Source: Pelagibacteraceae bacterium AG-365-D07 | GTDB lineage: Bacteria > Pseudomonadota > Alphaproteobacteria > Pelagibacterales > Pelagibacteraceae | NCBI GenBank assembly: GCA_003280005.1 | Contig: QCGH01000004.1 | Coordinates: 1-64,000 of the forward strand | Reading direction: 5' to 3' | DNA length: 64,000 nt | Shown here: positions 4,072 to 11,015 of the stretch, piece by piece | Position numbering within the stretch: position 1 is the stretch's first letter | Layout of the letters: each line of letters starts with the position of its first letter | The notes under the pieces: generated by a model | Told to the model about the DNA's origin: nothing | The model's input: only the letters and a program-made list of their open reading frames with translations | Databases searched by the model: none | Translations under genes and position numbers: made by a program

Positions 4072-4347
4072 CTAAAACAAAATTCCTTCCATTTTAAGTA
4101 GTTTTTTTTTAGTTTTTATACCTCCGGGACCTGAATAACCACCTAGACCACCATCAGATCTTATAACTCTATGACATGGTACTTTTGGAGCATATGGGTT
4201 TTTGCCAATAGCATTTGCCACCGCCCTTACTGCTTTTGGTCTATTTATAGCTTTTGCAACATCAAGATAAGTTCGGGTTTGACCCTTTGGAATTTTTTTG
4301 AGATATTTCCAGACTTGTATTTGAAACTTGGTACCGTTAAAAACCAT
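4072..4347 (-). CDS. ogt: methylated-DNA--protein-cysteine methyltransferase, C-terminal-domain type
   Basis: A 91-residue protein made only of the alkyl-acceptor domain of O6-alkylguanine-DNA alkyltransferases. The acceptor motif PCHRVI is at residues 57-62 (Cys58), preceded by RAVANAIGKNP and followed by GGLGGYSGPGG. Short stand-alone versions of this kind include both true repair enzymes and alkyltransferase-like proteins, but the latter lack the cysteine, so repair of O6-methylguanine is likely. I chose the ATG at 4347. A longer frame reaches a GTG at 4440, but it would run through the terminator and stem-loops of the upstream RNA candidate, and the added residues do not resemble the family. 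Confidence 0.85.
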   Translation of the reverse strand: MVFNGTKFQIQVWKYLKKIPKGQTRTYLDVAKAINRPKAVRAVANAIGKNPYAPKVPCHRVIRSDGGLGGYSGPGGIKTKKKLLKMEGILF

Positions 4348-4351
4348 ATTG

Positions 4352-4396
4352 AAAAAAACCCCTGTTTCCTTGCACTTTTTATGGTGCAAAGAACAG
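4352..4396 (-). terminator. rho-independent terminator of the RNA candidate
   Basis: On the minus strand CTGTTCTTTGCAC (from 4396 to 4384) pairs with GTGCAAGGAAACAG (4375 to 4362) with a single bulged A. This gives 13 base pairs around an eight-base loop, followed by GGG and seven T (4358-4352). It is by far the strongest terminator I see in the window. The downstream methyltransferase ATG begins only five bases after the T run. Confidence 0.8.
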
Positions 4397-4532
4397 TTGT
4401 TTTGGCACGTCGTTGTATGCGCTACCGCCATGCCCACCACTCTACGATTTTAGCGCTACTCCGCAGAGTTTTCTGCCCCCTGAGCTTGAACCTCTCGGTT
4501 TTTCCTCAATTGGCCAGTTAAGAGTTGCCCCT
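4352..4532 (-). ncRNA. GC-rich structured non-coding RNA candidate
   Basis: About 180 bases with close to 48% GC by eye, in surroundings well below 30%, a mark of structured RNA in AT-rich genomes. Stems that can be seen: GCGCTA/TAGCGC (4419-4424 with 4451-4456), GCAGA/TCTGC (4463-4467 with 4472-4476) and a long 3' hairpin ending in GGG plus T7, a classic terminator for the minus strand. Neither strand carries a recognisable protein. I compared it from memory with RNase P, SRP, 6S and tmRNA and saw no convincing match; only a short GAGGAAA recalls RNase P. The 5' end is uncertain. It lies just upstream of the methyltransferase gene. Confidence 0.6.
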
Positions 4533-4536
4533 TAAG

Positions 4537-4554
4537 TTGATAATATAATATCAA
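4537..4554. promoter_or_regulatory. near-palindrome TTGATA-N6-TATCAA upstream of the RNA candidate
   Basis: Perfect six-base arms TTGATA and TATCAA separated by six A/T bases, located where the promoter of the minus-strand RNA would be expected. It may be an operator, or simply an AT-rich promoter region. A related element lies before the integrase gene. Confidence 0.3.
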
Positions 4555-4643
4555 GTTTTAATATAAATGTTATCACTTAATCGTTGAATTTGGTGACTTT
4601 TTAACATATTGGAATAGTGGGGATAAATCTAAAATCATATGTT

Positions 4644-4820
4644 TTAAGTCATAAATATAAGACCAAAATAGCTTAATGAGAACAAAATAGCTAAAATTGA
4701 CAGGAAATATGTTTCTATTGTTTTTCCCTCTTTTTTATTTTGAATATAAGCTAAAACCCAAAAACCTATTGCGCTTAATAGAAATATTAAGTTAGGTATT
4801 TCTCCATCAATTGAACCCAT
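4644..4820 (-). CDS. small membrane protein, 58 residues, unknown function
   Basis: An ATG-initiated frame encoding two hydrophobic segments (about residues 10-26, LIFLLSAIGFWVLAYI, and 38-57, YFLSILAILFSLSYFG) joined by a charged loop containing NKKEGKTIE. The composition, with charged residues only in the loop and ends, is that of a genuine two-helix membrane protein rather than a random AT-rich frame. I recognise no family. No clear Shine-Dalgarno sequence precedes it. It is divergent from the integrase gene at 4900 and upstream of the RNA candidate on the same strand. Confidence 0.6.
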   Translation of the reverse strand: MGSIDGEIPNLIFLLSAIGFWVLAYIQNKKEGKTIETYFLSILAILFSLSYFGLIFMT

Positions 4821-4837
4821 AATTGCAATTTAAACTA

Positions 4838-4866
4838 TTGACAATATAAATCACTTAATATATTAC
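4838..4866 (+). promoter_or_regulatory. sigma-70-type promoter of the integrase operon
   Basis: A consensus -35 box TTGACA (4838-4843), a 17-base spacer and TATTAC (4861-4866) as -10. The expected start would be about 4873, some 27 bases before the integrase ATG. Confidence 0.55.
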
Positions 4867-4869
4867 TAA

Positions 4870-4888
4870 TGATAATTAATTGTTATCA
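4870..4888. promoter_or_regulatory. inverted repeat TGATAA-N7-TTATCA at the integrase start region
   Basis: Arms TGATAA and TTATCA flank seven bases, right at the predicted transcript start and 11 bases before the integrase ATG. A repressor binding here would block transcription; as RNA it would be a weak hairpin. The arms resemble those of the element at 4537-4554. Confidence 0.35.
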
Positions 4889-4899
4889 ATAGTAATTAT

Positions 4900-5853
4900 A
4901 TGAGTGAACTAACTACAGAATTAAAAACGCTTCATGAGGCAACTTTAAATAACCTAAGAAGCTCTAAAGCAAATAATACTTTAAGAGCTTATAAATCTGA
5001 TTTTAATGATTTTATGACATTTTGTGTAAAGCATGGATTAAATTCATTGCCAACAGAGCCTAAAATAGTATCTTTATATCTAACCCATCTCTCTAAAAAT
5101 TTAACAATAAGCACTTTAAAGCGAAGATTGGTATCAATAAGCATGGTTCATAAATTGAAAGGTCATTATCTAGACACTAAACATCCAATTATAGTTGAGA
5201 ATTTAATGGGAATAAGAAGAGTGAAAGGCAGTATTCAGAAGGGTAAAAAACCTATATTAATCAATCATTTAAAATCAATTATTAATGTAATTAATGAACA
5301 AAAAACTGATGAAATAAAAAAATTAAGAGATAAATCAATAATCTTAATTGGCTTTGGAGGCGGATTTAGAAGAACAGAGCTAATTTCAATTGATTATGAA
5401 GATTTAGAATTTGTTACTGAAGGGCTCAAAATTTATATTAAAAGATCAAAAACTGACCAATTTGGAGAAGGGATGACCAAAGGACTACCCTACTTCACTA
5501 ATGATATTTATTGTCCAGTTACAAATCTTAAAAAATGGTTAGAAATTTCAAAAATTAAATCTGGACCTATATTTAGAAGATTTTCAAAAGGATTGTCGTT
5601 ATCAGATAAAAGATTAACTGACCAATCTGTAGTTTTGCTTATGAAAGAATATTTGAACTTAGCAGGTGTCGAAAATAAAAATTACGCAGGTCATAGTTTA
5701 AGATCAGGTTTTGCAACAGTAGCTGCTGAGTCCGGAGCGGATGAAAGAAGTATAATGGCTATGACAGGGCATAAAAACACGCAAATGGTGAGAAGATATA
5801 TAAGAGAGGCAAATCTATTTAAAAATAATGCATTAAACAAAGTTAAACTATGA
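4900..5853 (+). CDS. tyrosine recombinase / integrase
   Basis: A 317-residue site-specific recombinase. The N-terminal SAM-like core-binding domain covers about residues 5-105 (NTLRAYKSDFNDF at 26-38). The catalytic domain follows, with Arg157 or Arg158 in GFRRTEL, a likely Lys184, the HSLR box (His265, Arg268), GHK (His291) and the nucleophile Tyr300 in RRYIRE. All expected active-site residues are present, so it should be functional. Its stop overlaps the following glycosyltransferase start as ATGA, unusual for an integrase. It sits at the opposite end of the accessory region from tRNA-Glu. The class (phage, island or transposon) cannot be told from the protein alone. Confidence 0.9.
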   Translation: MSELTTELKTLHEATLNNLRSSKANNTLRAYKSDFNDFMTFCVKHGLNSLPTEPKIVSLYLTHLSKNLTISTLKRRLVSISMVHKLKGHYLDTKHPIIVENLMGIRRVKGSIQKGKKPILINHLKSIINVINEQKTDEIKKLRDKSIILIGFGGGFRRTELISIDYEDLEFVTEGLKIYIKRSKTDQFGEGMTKGLPYFTNDIYCPVTNLKKWLEISKIKSGPIFRRFSKGLSLSDKRLTDQSVVLLMKEYLNLAGVENKNYAGHSLRSGFATVAAESGADERSIMAMTGHKNTQMVRRYIREANLFKNNALNKVKL

Positions 5854-6584
5854 CAAAATTCTGTGTATCTTTAACAAGTTTGCCATCAAGAATTGATAAT
5901 TTAAATCAAACACTGCTATCAATACAAAATCAATCCGTAAAACCCGACAAAGTTTTTTTAAATTTACCATATAAATTTAAAAGATTTCCAAATTATAGTT
6001 TTACATCTGAACAAATTAATAAAATTTCAAAGTATGAACTAGAAATATCTAGATGCGAAGATTTTGGACCGGGAACAAAATTAATGGGATCCTTAAACAA
6101 AATGTACGATAATTTTGATTGTGTAATTTTAATTGATGATGATCATATTTATCATGAAAAAATGTTTGAAATATTAATTGATAACTTTAATAAAGAGCAA
6201 ATCAATTATTCTTACTATTTAAATAAAATATTTAATATAAGAAATGGTCAATGTTCAGACGGATTTTTGATAAATATTAAATTTTTAGATAAAATTGAAA
6301 AATTTTATGACCAATATGTAAAGAATAGCAAAAATATGTTTTTAGATGATGATTTATGGTTTGCTATATACCTTTATTGTGAAAAATATTCAAAAACAAA
6401 AAATATAATTGAAGATTTTAGGGCAAAAACAGGTGAACACTTGTCTTATAAACAGCATATAAATAAAGATATCGATGCACTTCATAAAACAGAGCATAAA
6501 TCAAATATATTCTTAAATAGAAGAAAAATTCAAAAAATTGAATTTATAAAATACAAGCTTAAGAAACTTGCTTATTTTGTGTGA
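5850..6584 (+). CDS. glycosyltransferase family 2-like protein
   Basis: A 244-residue protein with a GT-A-like start (CVSLTSLPSRIDNLNQTLLSI) and a nucleotide-sugar/metal-binding aspartate cluster IDDDH (about residues 95-99). A second cluster LDDDLWF is at about 165-171. It lacks membrane segments and is probably cytoplasmic or peripheral, adding a sugar to a surface glycan; donor and acceptor are unknown. The start overlaps the integrase stop (ATGA). Its 3' end overlaps the convergent gene at 6559 by 26 bases. Confidence 0.7.
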   Translation: MTKFCVSLTSLPSRIDNLNQTLLSIQNQSVKPDKVFLNLPYKFKRFPNYSFTSEQINKISKYELEISRCEDFGPGTKLMGSLNKMYDNFDCVILIDDDHIYHEKMFEILIDNFNKEQINYSYYLNKIFNIRNGQCSDGFLINIKFLDKIEKFYDQYVKNSKNMFLDDDLWFAIYLYCEKYSKTKNIIEDFRAKTGEHLSYKQHINKDIDALHKTEHKSNIFLNRRKIQKIEFIKYKLKKLAYFV

Positions 6585-7563
6585 TTAAATTAATTAATTC
6601 ATTAGCCACATGAGAGTAATTACGTGAATTTCGCAAAGAGAACAGGTATGATCTAAATTTTAAATAAAGATCTTTATCATTTAGCAATTTATGAGAATAG
6701 TGAACAAACTCATCGATATTTTTTGCAATATATCCTGTTTTATTATGCTCTACTCTTTCATAAAGTGACCCATAACCCATTGTAACTATCGGCAAACACA
6801 GTTCTCTTGCCTCCTCAGCAGCCAAACAGAAAACTTCACCCTTATGACCTGGCACAAGCATAATCATTGAAGTTTTTAGGTCATTTATTAAATTATTTTT
6901 TGATCCTTTGTTTCTTAATTTAATTTTAAGATTAACTAAATCTTCAGAAATATTATAAGGTGGATTAACATATAGTTCAGCATCCTTATTTAATGAATAT
7001 ATTTGTCTCCAAGCATTTATCAAAAAATCAAGATTGCGATCTGATTTCGTTGTAAATATACACTTTTTTGACGGTAATTCATTTATATTAATTTCTTCAT
7101 TTATAAATTCATAATCAGGAGCTAATTTAATTATGTGTTTTCCAAATATGGATGTAATTATTGATCTTTTTTTTAAATGATAATCTCCCTCTAATATTAT
7201 TGTTGGTCTGTATAATAGGTACGGAATTAATTGTTTTTTTCTAATAAATTTTTCTAAGTTTTGAACACTATGAGACCATAAGAAATTTTTATTACATTTG
7301 AAATTTTTAAACAAATTCATGTCAGAAAATGAAATTAATACATCAGGACTTTTATAATTATGACAAGAATTAATATTAATCCAATTAACCTTATTTATTT
7401 CAACATTTGTTTTTGTTTGATTAAAAACTTTTACATTAAAATTAGGTTTCTTTGCCAATTCATTGGCAATATTAATTAGCACTTTTTCTGTCCCACCAAT
7501 CAAAGCACTATTCAAATCATTTCCATTAAAAGGTATTGATTTTTCTAAAAAATATAAATCCAT
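6559..7563 (-). CDS. glycosyltransferase, GT4-like
   Basis: A 334-residue GT-B type glycosyltransferase. The N-terminus contains the GGTEKVLINIANEL pattern (about residues 23-36). The C-terminal half shows the donor-binding region with GHKGEVFCLAAEEAREL and the following PIVTMGYGSLYE, matching the E-x7-E region of family 4. It is the last gene of the minus-strand cluster that starts at 11942, one base after the GT9-like gene, and it ends inside the convergent glycosyltransferase gene. The likely role is addition of a sugar to a surface polysaccharide or lipid; specificity is not predictable. Confidence 0.75.
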   Translation of the reverse strand: MDLYFLEKSIPFNGNDLNSALIGGTEKVLINIANELAKKPNFNVKVFNQTKTNVEINKVNWININSCHNYKSPDVLISFSDMNLFKNFKCNKNFLWSHSVQNLEKFIRKKQLIPYLLYRPTIILEGDYHLKKRSIITSIFGKHIIKLAPDYEFINEEININELPSKKCIFTTKSDRNLDFLINAWRQIYSLNKDAELYVNPPYNISEDLVNLKIKLRNKGSKNNLINDLKTSMIMLVPGHKGEVFCLAAEEARELCLPIVTMGYGSLYERVEHNKTGYIAKNIDEFVHYSHKLLNDKDLYLKFRSYLFSLRNSRNYSHVANELINLITQNKQVS

Positions 7564-7564
7564 T

Positions 7565-8575
7565 CTATAATCTTTTTTCTAATTTTCTAATTGAGTCATC
7601 AAAATTTTTTTTTAAAACAACAAAATTGAACTTGGTTGGAGGAAACCATTCTTTGCATGATATAATCTGATTTATAAAATCTTGTCTATTTCTTAAATTA
7701 AAATGCATAAGAGATAATATTTCTTTTTGTAGATGATAACCTATGTGTGTAATAATTCCTTCTGGAGCTATAATTTTCGAACTATTTTTGATTGTTGTAT
7801 ACAAATTCAATCCATCTATATTTTTTAAAAAAAGTATCTTTTTTGAATTTATAATGTTTTCTTTCTTATTATTAAAGTCATAGCTATTAAAACTTTGAGT
7901 AAAAAATTCATCTGATGATTTATTATTTAACTCAGATGAAAATACTATATTACCTTTTACTGATGATAAAAATTCAATAAATTTTTTAACTTTTATAAAA
8001 TCCCATTTTAGTAAATCATTAAACATTTTATGTTTATAGTGAAAATAAACAGGATTTTTTGGAAAATTAAAATTTAAGTTTGATGCTACATCATCATTTA
8101 ATAAATTTGTAAAATTATTTTGTTTCTCAATTAGCAACTGCTGTATATCATAGGTTGAGTTTCTTTGTTTGATATTAATTCTATTTATAACTATTTTTTT
8201 ATATAAAAATTTTCTTAAAAACAAATTAGGTCTGAATTTTTTGGCATCAATACAAATTCCATAAAATTTTATTTGTTTATAAAAAAAAAATAGAGGTAAA
8301 AAAAAATAAAAATTTTTTGGAGTAAGTATGTAGACAGTATCAATTTTGTTACAAAAAAAATAAAAAAGAATTTTTATTTTATTTAAAAAATCAAGATTTA
8401 AATTAATAACTTTAATTTTTTTAGGCTTAAACAAAAATTTAAAATTTTCATTTATTTTTGATAAGTAAATTTCAATTTGATCATGCTTATGTTTATTAAA
8501 TATCAAATTAATTGTTTTTAAAGATGTAAATAAATCTCCTGTTCTATCATTTTTAAGTATTAGGATTTTTTTCAC
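7565..8575 (-). CDS. GT9-like (heptosyltransferase-type) glycosyltransferase
   Basis: A 336-residue protein with the GT9 N-terminal pattern ILILKNDRTGDLFTSL (residues 4-19). Near the C-terminus is the donor-site segment IAPEGIITHIGYHL, as in ADP-heptose:LPS heptosyltransferases. The middle is very rich in Lys, Asn, Phe and Ile. Many GT9-fold proteins in surface-glycan clusters do not use heptose, so only the fold is claimed. The start codon is GTG at 8575, the only one that gives the complete N-terminal motif. It lies three bases after the bifunctional gene and one base before the next. Confidence 0.7.
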   Translation of the reverse strand: MKKILILKNDRTGDLFTSLKTINLIFNKHKHDQIEIYLSKINENFKFLFKPKKIKVINLNLDFLNKIKILFYFFCNKIDTVYILTPKNFYFFLPLFFFYKQIKFYGICIDAKKFRPNLFLRKFLYKKIVINRINIKQRNSTYDIQQLLIEKQNNFTNLLNDDVASNLNFNFPKNPVYFHYKHKMFNDLLKWDFIKVKKFIEFLSSVKGNIVFSSELNNKSSDEFFTQSFNSYDFNNKKENIINSKKILFLKNIDGLNLYTTIKNSSKIIAPEGIITHIGYHLQKEILSLMHFNLRNRQDFINQIISCKEWFPPTKFNFVVLKKNFDDSIRKLEKRL

Positions 8576-8578
8576 TTA

Positions 8579-10705
8579 TTATTTTTTTGCCCAAATAAAT
8601 TTATTATTGTTACCCTTATCGAAAGTTTTGTTAACAATATAGTCCGCCACTATTGTTGAATTAAAGTATTTCATATATTTTTCTTTACCATTTTTAGCGA
8701 TTTTTTTTCTTAACTTTTCATCCTTGCTTATTTTTTGTATTTGATCTGCCAAATGATCTATTGTTGAATAGAATACCATTTCATTGCTTTCAAAAAAATC
8801 TCTATAAAAAGTTTTTTCATCAATTAGTGTCACTAAACCGTTTCCTATAATTTGCGTTATTCTATCACTGCTGTAATATTTTATTGGTGATCCCCTACTG
8901 AGATTTAATCCCATTTTGGAATTAGAAATATTTTTAAAATATTGGTCTGCCCATATTGGCTGGACACCATTCATGCCATAAATATCAAATCTAACATTAT
9001 TACATTTCATCATTAACTTATTTATAAATATTTCTCTATCATCAGTAGTTCTGTTTTTTAACTTTCCTCTATGAACACCATGACTAAGTGCAAAAAAAAC
9101 ATCATTTGAACAATTTTTTTTATGATTTGAAAGAGTTTCAATAGAATGGTCGCAAGGATTTGGAATAAAATAACTGTTTGTTTTATTTAAAAATTTTAAA
9201 ACATCCGGAGCAGTAGTTAAAAAATTACCGTCAATTACATCTATCTTGTCTAAAATTCTTTTTTTGTTCTTATGATAATCAGGACCATTAGAATTTAAAG
9301 GATCTAGGAACCATTGAGCAACTTTAAGATTTGAATATTCGCTTTTAAGACTATCAATTATATCGAGAGAAATCATATCAGCATGACCGAGAACAAGTAA
9401 GTCAGGTTTAAAATGGTAACAAGTTTTAATCAATTTATCATTTAAAGTTTTAGAACCGTTTAGATCTCTATAATTTTTACTTCGACTTACTATATCTCTA
9501 TCACTAAATTCTAAAACACTATGACCCAATCTAATAAATCCATTATTAATCCTACGACCAGTATTAAAAAATAGTCTTCCATTATGTCTTTCATTAAAAT
9601 TAGTTATATGAAGGATCCTTAATTTTTTATCTTTATTAATAAGAAATGGTTTTGATATATTTACTAAAGATTTTCTAACATTGTCAATTTGATCTGATAC
9701 AAATTTATGGGTTAAATAAAAATTTTTATATGACAATTTTTGTAATTGTTTTCGTTTAGTTTTGTTAATAATTAATTTATCAATTCTTTCATAGATTTCT
9801 TTAACATTTAAATTTTTTAAAATAATTCCATTGGTCAGAGTTTCAGGAAGACCTCCTCTATTGCTTATAATTACTGCACACCCATTAGCAGATGCCTCGA
9901 GACTAGTTCTTCCAAAAGGTTCTTCCCACCTGGAACAAACTACAGCAATGCTTGATATTTTATAAAGGTTAATAATTTCAGTATGATTTATAAAACCTAA
10001 CTTAACTAATCTTGCATGATTAAAATCAATCTTATCCCTAGGTTCATCACCTGCAACATAGGCTTTCCAGTTTTTATGTTTTTTTAATATTTTTATTACA
10101 GCTTTACCAAATAAATCATAACCTTTAGATCTATTGAGTTTACCAACAAAAGTTATAATATTTTTTTTTCTTTTTATTTGTATTTTATTCTTTGCTGCAG
10201 ATTGATTTATTACAGTTAGTTTTTCGCTATTTATTGCATCTGAACTCATTCCATCGAGAAATCTTTTTTTTGACCAATTGCTGTTAAAAATTATTTTGAA
10301 ACAATTTTTTAGCAAAAATATCCTATCATTTTTAGAAGAAGATCCATTCATAGAGAGAGGATCATTATGAAAATAAAGAATATAATTTCTTTTGGACAAA
10401 CTTTTAACTAGATAATTAAGATAAATTGGACGATTGTGAATTTCTATTAAATCAGACTCAGACTTTTTTTCGATGGAAATAAATTTTTTTACATAATCTT
10501 TATTTGAGCTAAAAAAAAGACGATTTGATGTTTCAATATTAACATAAGAATTTTGAAACTTTTTTTTATATTCTGTATAACCATAAACAGTACTTGTGTG
10601 TTTAAATTTACTATATTTAATTGTATCGTTTATAAACAAAGATACAGCACCAGCATAATCTGGTGAAAAATTTTCTTTAAATGGTAATAAAATAGAGATT
10701 TTCAT
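8579..10705 (-). CDS. two-domain glycosyltransferase (GT4 plus CgeB-like)
   Basis: A 708-residue fusion. Residues 1 to about 350 form a GT4 enzyme with the donor motif EPFGRTSLEASANG and NRGGLPE around 262-288. From about 362 a second GT-B unit begins (LRILHITNFNERHNGRLFF). It continues with DLLVLGHAD, WFLDPLN, the FALSHGVHRG segment and a C-terminal GNGLVTLIDE segment, resembling the CgeB/spore-maturation type of glycosyltransferase. Two active sites in one chain suggest two consecutive sugar additions to the same acceptor. The start overlaps the GIY-YIG stop (ATGA). Confidence 0.75.
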   Translation of the reverse strand: MKISILLPFKENFSPDYAGAVSLFINDTIKYSKFKHTSTVYGYTEYKKKFQNSYVNIETSNRLFFSSNKDYVKKFISIEKKSESDLIEIHNRPIYLNYLVKSLSKRNYILYFHNDPLSMNGSSSKNDRIFLLKNCFKIIFNSNWSKKRFLDGMSSDAINSEKLTVINQSAAKNKIQIKRKKNIITFVGKLNRSKGYDLFGKAVIKILKKHKNWKAYVAGDEPRDKIDFNHARLVKLGFINHTEIINLYKISSIAVVCSRWEEPFGRTSLEASANGCAVIISNRGGLPETLTNGIILKNLNVKEIYERIDKLIINKTKRKQLQKLSYKNFYLTHKFVSDQIDNVRKSLVNISKPFLINKDKKLRILHITNFNERHNGRLFFNTGRRINNGFIRLGHSVLEFSDRDIVSRSKNYRDLNGSKTLNDKLIKTCYHFKPDLLVLGHADMISLDIIDSLKSEYSNLKVAQWFLDPLNSNGPDYHKNKKRILDKIDVIDGNFLTTAPDVLKFLNKTNSYFIPNPCDHSIETLSNHKKNCSNDVFFALSHGVHRGKLKNRTTDDREIFINKLMMKCNNVRFDIYGMNGVQPIWADQYFKNISNSKMGLNLSRGSPIKYYSSDRITQIIGNGLVTLIDEKTFYRDFFESNEMVFYSTIDHLADQIQKISKDEKLRKKIAKNGKEKYMKYFNSTIVADYIVNKTFDKGNNNKFIWAKK

Positions 10706-10953
10706 TTGTTAGATATTATTTTTTTTCTAAGAATATAATTTTTTTTTAATTTAAATTCGTTTTTCATCGCATCAGATTTTGAATCATACTTTTCATAATA
10801 AACCAACTTCCATATTTTTCCTCTAGTAAACTTAGCTCCCCTCCCCGTGTTATGTAATTTAATCCTTTTTTTTAAGTTATTTGTGTACCCTACATATGAA
10901 AATATTTTATTATTTTTAATTTTCGACACAATAAGATATACAAAATATGTCAT
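10702..10953 (-). CDS. GIY-YIG superfamily protein (YhbQ/UPF0213 type)
   Basis: An 83-residue single-domain protein. YFVYLIV at the start and SYVGYTNNLKKRIKLHN form the GIY-YIG core with its arginine, and the later MKNEFKLKK supplies the conserved glutamate. Small proteins of this type are putative nucleases of unclear biological role, and they turn up often in variable regions. I prefer the ATG at 10953; a TTG four codons upstream (10965) is possible. It is coupled by ATGA to the bifunctional glycosyltransferase, which is an odd partner for a nuclease. Confidence 0.8.
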   Translation of the reverse strand: MTYFVYLIVSKIKNNKIFSYVGYTNNLKKRIKLHNTGRGAKFTRGKIWKLVYYEKYDSKSDAMKNEFKLKKNYILRKKIISNK

Positions 10954-11015
10954 TTTAACGGCCAATGCGAATGGTTATATTTTATAATAAAAAACATAAA
11001 CGCTGTATCATAATT

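Follow-up and report, generated by a model that had tools for sequence, protein, structure and literature searches.

IMES-2 is one of the marine RNAs that were catalogued around 2009 and is reportedly an abundant RNA; IMES-1 was named from the same type of marine screen. The IMES-2 motif was reportedly published by Weinberg et al. in 2009, in Nature 462:656. In Rfam, it is catalogued as an RNA motif without an assigned function, and a full-text search of the literature on IMES-2 located neither a related paper nor a function. Another structured RNA of the SAR11 bacteria, the SAR11_0636 element, is described as a three-stem junction, is flanked by other genes in HTCC1062, and is thought to be free-standing (PMC2704228). 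The locus described here lies on the minus strand of the window, which denotes the whole stretch of 64,000 nucleotides analysed from Pelagibacteraceae bacterium AG-365-D07, and had been picked out in an earlier note as an unassigned GC-rich structured RNA.

Identity and fold of the RNA

When 4227 Rfam families were scanned against the locus, the only significant match was to RF02035 (IMES-2) at 4542-4402 on the minus strand, which covers the model in its full length (positions 1-141 of 141) with 154.8 bits and an E-value of 1.4e-40, compared to a family cut-off (gathering threshold) of 54.7 bits. The label "unassigned" has to be dropped with this match, a significant Rfam hit having been named in the earlier note itself as the outcome that refutes novelty, and its view that the locus is none of RNase P, SRP, 6S, or tmRNA stands; the RNA was already known, and the observation was correct and careful. 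The consensus structure of the helices P1 to P4 is kept, with covariation among the homologues, and the source is marine bacterial (single-cell genomes and MAGs of Pelagibacteraceae/Pelagibacterales). As judged from the sequence, it is virtually certain that the minus-strand element 4352-4542 represents an RNA gene of the IMES-2 family, of which one copy is present in the source genome (assembly about 85% complete).

The element stands out from very AT-rich DNA, as had been noticed before, with a GC content of 0.45-0.55 across 4350-4549 versus 0.20-0.30 in the non-coding flanks (100-base windows). The predicted fold energy of the minus strand from 4350 to 4545 is -66.8 kcal/mol, compared to a mean of -46.8 kcal/mol for dinucleotide shuffles (n = 200, z = -5.2, none of the 200 as stable), and the predicted fold consists, in this order, of P1, P2, P3, P4, and a terminal hairpin, which has about 13 bp and a single bulge and precedes GGG and T7. 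The three clear stems originally counted are thus four helices plus a terminator, the structured nature of the RNA being confirmed, and the original bounds of 4352-4532 are accurate at the T7 end (4358-4352), whereas the RNA body extends about 10 nt further at the other end, to 4542.

P1 (4518-4535, minus strand, as for all parts of the RNA) is a hairpin with a GCAA loop, in which 100% of the cells are paired and four of the seven pairs show double changes. P2 (4473-4517) is a long, interrupted hairpin that contains a conserved internal loop rich in A and ends in a GAGA tetraloop, and the loops of both P1 and P2 are of the GNRA type. P3 (4439-4469) and P4 (4404-4434) are hairpins with large loops containing GUAGCGCU and GUAGCGC, respectively, the latter word being present in both loops. 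All six outer pairs of P3 covary, and P2 and P4 are based on the Rfam structure together with the covariation alignment. In this alignment of 45 IMES-2 copies, which are less than 93% alike, 93.3% of the cells are paired over 45 pairs, and double changes occur in 32 of these; none of 500 shuffles reached as high a value on any covariation measure, and slid registers came nowhere near. The covariation among SAR11 homologues, which had been proposed as a check, is therefore strong. Several single-stranded positions of IMES-2 are invariant, and the linker CAGAAAG is among the conserved unpaired segments.

A kissing interaction is predicted between the large P3 and P4 loops, in which GCGCU in the P3 loop (4452-4456) pairs with AGCGC in the P4 loop (4419-4423). 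These positions are paired in 99.6% of the cells, with compensatory changes in three of the five pairs, and the P3/P4 loop combinations found across genera (GCGC/GCGC, GCAC/GUGC, GUGC/GCAC, GUAC/GUAC, and UCGC/GCGA) are matched variants, as predicted for a loop-loop interaction. Double changes are found in only eight cells of the respective columns, and the support for this putative pairing is clear but not massive. Two copies of one protein-binding word in the loops would not give such matched variants. Pairing between the P3 and P4 loops is missing from the Rfam structure in the cmscan output; since Infernal models are unable to hold pseudoknots, the kissing loop may already be annotated elsewhere.

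The earlier statement that no protein frame makes sense at this locus is consistent with the lack of conservation of the long frames across the RNA, including the frame 4072-4440 (minus strand), an upstream extension of ogt across IMES-2. An antisense ORF of 116 aa (4171-4521, plus strand), which spans IMES-2 and ogt, is probably spurious, because the frame is interrupted at most homologous loci (open in 11 of 44).

Predicted transcription signals

Just beyond the end of the Rfam model lies an intrinsic terminator (4352-4403, minus strand), composed of the hairpin 4396-4362, GGG (4361-4359), and T7 (4358-4352), at the positions claimed before. Of 64 distinct regions downstream of IMES-2, 57 contain a hairpin followed by a T-run, versus 13 of 314 control stretches; the remaining seven regions, all at mnmA, contain a hairpin and then a pyrimidine-rich stretch, and a 3' hairpin is present at IMES-2 copies of all four genomic contexts described below. 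Together with the covariation, these counts bear out the proposal of a gene for a structured RNA that ends in a terminator of its own. A scan with a generic terminator pattern, which disallows GGG between stem and T-run, found none at the locus. The IMES-2 transcript probably extends over about 190 nt on the minus strand, from about 4540 to 4352.

Upstream of the RNA, two sequence features are common to the copies of every context, namely CAACNANAAAGTGATAC, located 45-49 nt upstream of the RNA start, and tandem 9-mers close to the DnaA box TTATCCACA, located about 30 to 42 nt above CAACNANAAAGTGATAC. In the window, the conserved upstream element CAACNANAAAGTGATA (4571-4586, minus strand), which likewise precedes copies in every context, contains a -35-like GTGATA at 4571-4576, and a predicted -10-like GATATT (4547-4552, minus strand; alternatively TATTAT at 4545-4550) follows 18 nt past GTGATA, leaving about 7 nt to the 5' end of the RNA. 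The tandem DnaA-box-like 9-mers TTATCCCCA CTATTCCAA (4609-4626, minus strand) match the DnaA box only approximately; they are conserved at four unrelated loci. A double-box score of at least 13 out of 18 was obtained in 86% of 76 distinct upstream regions, compared to 0 for the reverse complement and a mean of 9.8 for shuffled sequences. The distance between the 9-mers and the -35-like element is either 31-34 or 39-42, two classes that differ by about 9 bp. In the mnmA context, the tandem boxes are located within the last codons of mnmA, and their conservation there could be partly coding, an explanation that would not apply to the ogt, SNase, and selO sites.

The CAACNANAAAGTGATA site is the sole perfect match to the searched pattern in the source genome, and the 18-mer of the tandem boxes is not a common genomic repeat; no convincing further genomic copies of the CAAC...GTGATA element, which might have hinted at a regulon, were found. 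Neither was a DnaA-box cluster marking oriC found in the sampled parts of the genomes G015 and G001. A placement of IMES-2 near the replication terminus was considered and rejected, as proximity to the sampled skew maximum holds for G015 and fails for G001.

Genomic contexts and distribution

In the window, IMES-2 lies between the gene for a tyrosine integrase (PF00589, 4900-5853, plus strand), correctly recognized as its neighbour before, and ogt, coding for a 6-O-methylguanine DNA methyltransferase (PF01035, 4072-4347, minus strand), with the start codon directly after T7. A putative small membrane protein of 58 aa without a Pfam match is encoded at 4644-4820 (minus strand). About two thirds of 165 copies are located between the divergent integrase gene and ogt, as in the window's genus, while about one third are found downstream of mnmA with a convergent gene opposite (genera g5, g6, g9, and others), three (g2) between the genes for an SNase-type nuclease and a convergent SRAP protein, and one (g8) beside selO. 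A selO gene is near IMES-2 in both g2 and g8 (L040, L041, L042, L044), the immediate neighbours differing, and the two sites may share ancestry.

At the mnmA and SNase/SRAP sites, IMES-2 is followed by a convergent gene and thus has no direct downstream target in cis, and no coding partner is conserved 3' of IMES-2, which leaves the former suggestion of an antisense or toxin-pair RNA unsupported. IMES-2 carries its own ends, independent of any single neighbour, which speaks against a role as riboswitch or leader, and because the same upstream block precedes it at four unrelated loci, it should be regarded as a separate transcription unit rather than as an ogt leader. The start of ogt at 4347 compares with the end of the T-run at 4352, and the distance amounts to a few to about 15 nt in the window's genus. 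Since this gap is too short for a promoter, ogt would have to be expressed via terminator readthrough or from an internal promoter of the IMES-2 gene, which is likely a side effect of gene placement and not its purpose.

The gap between the integrase gene and ogt (4347-4900 in the window; L001-L039 and L056-L073) is variable between genomes and holds several combinations of IMES-2, the membrane protein of about 58 aa, a DUF2938 protein, and an acetyltransferase-like protein (by eye). Beside the integrase, a run of glycosyltransferase-like genes (by eye) extends over 5850-10705 in the window, which is probably the edge of the SAR11 hypervariable surface-polysaccharide region, and a small GIY-YIG-like protein (by eye) is encoded within this cluster at 10702-10965 (minus strand).

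Matches to RF02035 above the cut-off were obtained in 200 of 397 Pelagibacterales genomes, with one copy each, and all 200 genomes belong to a single family. A custom covariance model, which recovers IMES-2 in the control genomes G000, G001, and G007, gave no match in 53 sampled genomes of a second Pelagibacterales family, no diverged copies in 80 IMES-2-less genomes (with stricter filters), and none in 385 Alphaproteobacteria searched outside the order. In a pattern scan of named genome records, the whole-motif stretches, among those examined, were all from Pelagibacteraceae/Pelagibacterales. Hits of an 18-nt loop pattern outside SAR11 (Chitinophagaceae, Chloroflexi, and others) were without the motif and were discarded as chance matches, as were four IMG/VR viral contigs matching a conserved 18-nt piece, none of which holds the motif.

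About half of the sampled order is without IMES-2, including complete genomes of the same genus, and the RNA is therefore not essential. Same-genus genomes without IMES-2 keep the order integrase, small gene, ogt, and EamA transporter, and in several IMES-2-less genomes the homologue of the 58-aa protein directly abuts ogt, no trace of the RNA being present. In a phylogeny of the three flanking proteins, the presence of IMES-2 requires six changes, three of which are forced by well-supported branches, indicating that the RNA has apparently been lost or gained several times at one fixed site, with the tree being blind to gain versus loss. Recombination in this variable region could mimic gain or loss.

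Mode of action and comparison with known systems

The best explanation overall, which we regard as reasonably probable, is that the single-copy IMES-2 gene is transcribed on its own into a non-coding RNA of about 190 nt, which acts in trans, binds a protein, and is regulated via the boxes; of this, its nature as an independent trans-acting RNA is held with considerable confidence. We infer from the sequence that IMES-2 is transcribed, with a start near 4540 from the conserved block of tandem TTATCCACA-like boxes, the -35-like GTGATA, and the -10 element, and a stop at 4352. The body would consist of two GNRA-capped hairpins (P1 and P2) and two hairpins with kissing large loops (P3 and P4), which would render the RNA compact, with little free single strand, and the folded surface would be presented to a protein or ribonucleoprotein partner, in principle like in 6S-type RNAs. 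A factor acting at the tandem boxes, possibly DnaA, would tie the supply of IMES-2 to the replication or growth state; DnaA is a lead only and rather unlikely to be correct. Even more doubtful is the far-reaching version of a replication- or growth-coupled global regulator RNA, acting via a protein partner in bacteria without Hfq and 6S and encoded by a portable unit of about 300 bp (tandem DnaA-type boxes, promoter, kissing-loop RNA, and terminator), which would be acquired or dropped in one piece among close relatives.

Action via a protein or ribonucleoprotein is favoured because the RNA is compact, its loops are tied together, and it has no long free conserved seed; protein binding rather than base pairing is nevertheless proposed tentatively, as a plausible mode. 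Hfq-dependent base pairing was rejected, since no Hfq was found in 21 SAR11 genomes, with E. coli and Caulobacter as positive controls. An Hfq-independent sRNA base pairing in trans, with the CAGAAAG linker, the internal loop, or the opened P3/P4 loops as seed, is conceivable but of lower likelihood than protein binding. Its size, terminator, and independent promoter would be typical of sRNAs, as would fit the invariant single-stranded positions, but the long conserved unstructured seed is absent, as is Hfq, and the conserved loop letters are engaged in the covarying kissing interaction, so that their conservation is attributable to the fold of the RNA itself rather than to an external target. 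It appears highly improbable that IMES-2 stands in for a missing housekeeping RNA, chiefly 6S RNA. The length is similar and no 6S match was found in 25 SAR11 genomes (Caulobacter and other controls being positive), but the fold of IMES-2 is not a long open-centred hairpin, and there is no complementary pattern, because the genomes without IMES-2 are also without 6S; the tmRNA and the SRP and RNase P RNAs of HTCC1062 are already assigned (PMC2704228).

Two further alternatives are linked to the neighbouring genes of the window. The same-strand position of ogt, whose start follows so shortly after the T-run in the window's genus, and an AGGGG stretch in the 3' arm of the terminator that resembles a ribosome site would suit a cis-acting ogt leader or attenuator, in which signal-dependent readthrough or opening of the terminator controls the DNA-repair gene. 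However, IMES-2 faces a convergent gene at mnmA or SNase/SRAP in other genera instead of the fixed same-strand downstream gene of a riboswitch or leader, many genomes have ogt without IMES-2, and no conserved terminator-opening alternative pairing was seen in an unsystematic look. Such control is therefore very unlikely, a secondary readthrough effect on ogt being possible. An assignment as cargo or working part of a mobile island under the control of the adjoining integrase, as in the earlier suggestion of an "RNA of the island," is largely refuted and extremely improbable: IMES-2 does adjoin the integrase, on the border of a region rich in glycosyltransferases, and shows a patchy presence at several chromosomal sites, but the integrase is kept in genomes where the RNA is absent, the other three sites in other genera are away from any adjoining integrase, and none of the four IMG/VR contigs holds the motif.

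IMES-2 is present in about half of the Pelagibacterales genomes sampled; these bacteria are among the most abundant ocean cells and have few regulators. The promoter block, the kissing loop, and the pairs of genomes with and without the RNA make its function testable. The specific questions opened concern the factor at the tandem boxes, the protein on the folded RNA, and the comparison of isolates with and without IMES-2.

Among the known systems, the SAR11_0636 element and other Pelagibacter candidate RNAs (PMC2704228) resemble IMES-2 as GC-rich, intergenic, structured SAR11 RNAs, but SAR11_0636 is set apart by its description as a three-stem junction with other flanking genes. A search for IMES-1 RNA (RF02034), run without a positive control, gave no match in 35 SAR11 genomes. 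6S RNA (RF00013) is similar to IMES-2 in length, as a free-standing gene, and in the proposed protein-binding mode, but differs in its fold, shows no detected homology, and is found in none of the 25 SAR11 genomes with or without IMES-2. The closest system is IMES-2 (RF02035) itself, from which the window copy is indistinguishable, with a full-length match, all helices, and a marine SAR11 source; the present comparison adds a terminator located past the 3' end of the model, the putative kissing loop, the shared promoter block, the four contexts, and the pattern of presence and absence.
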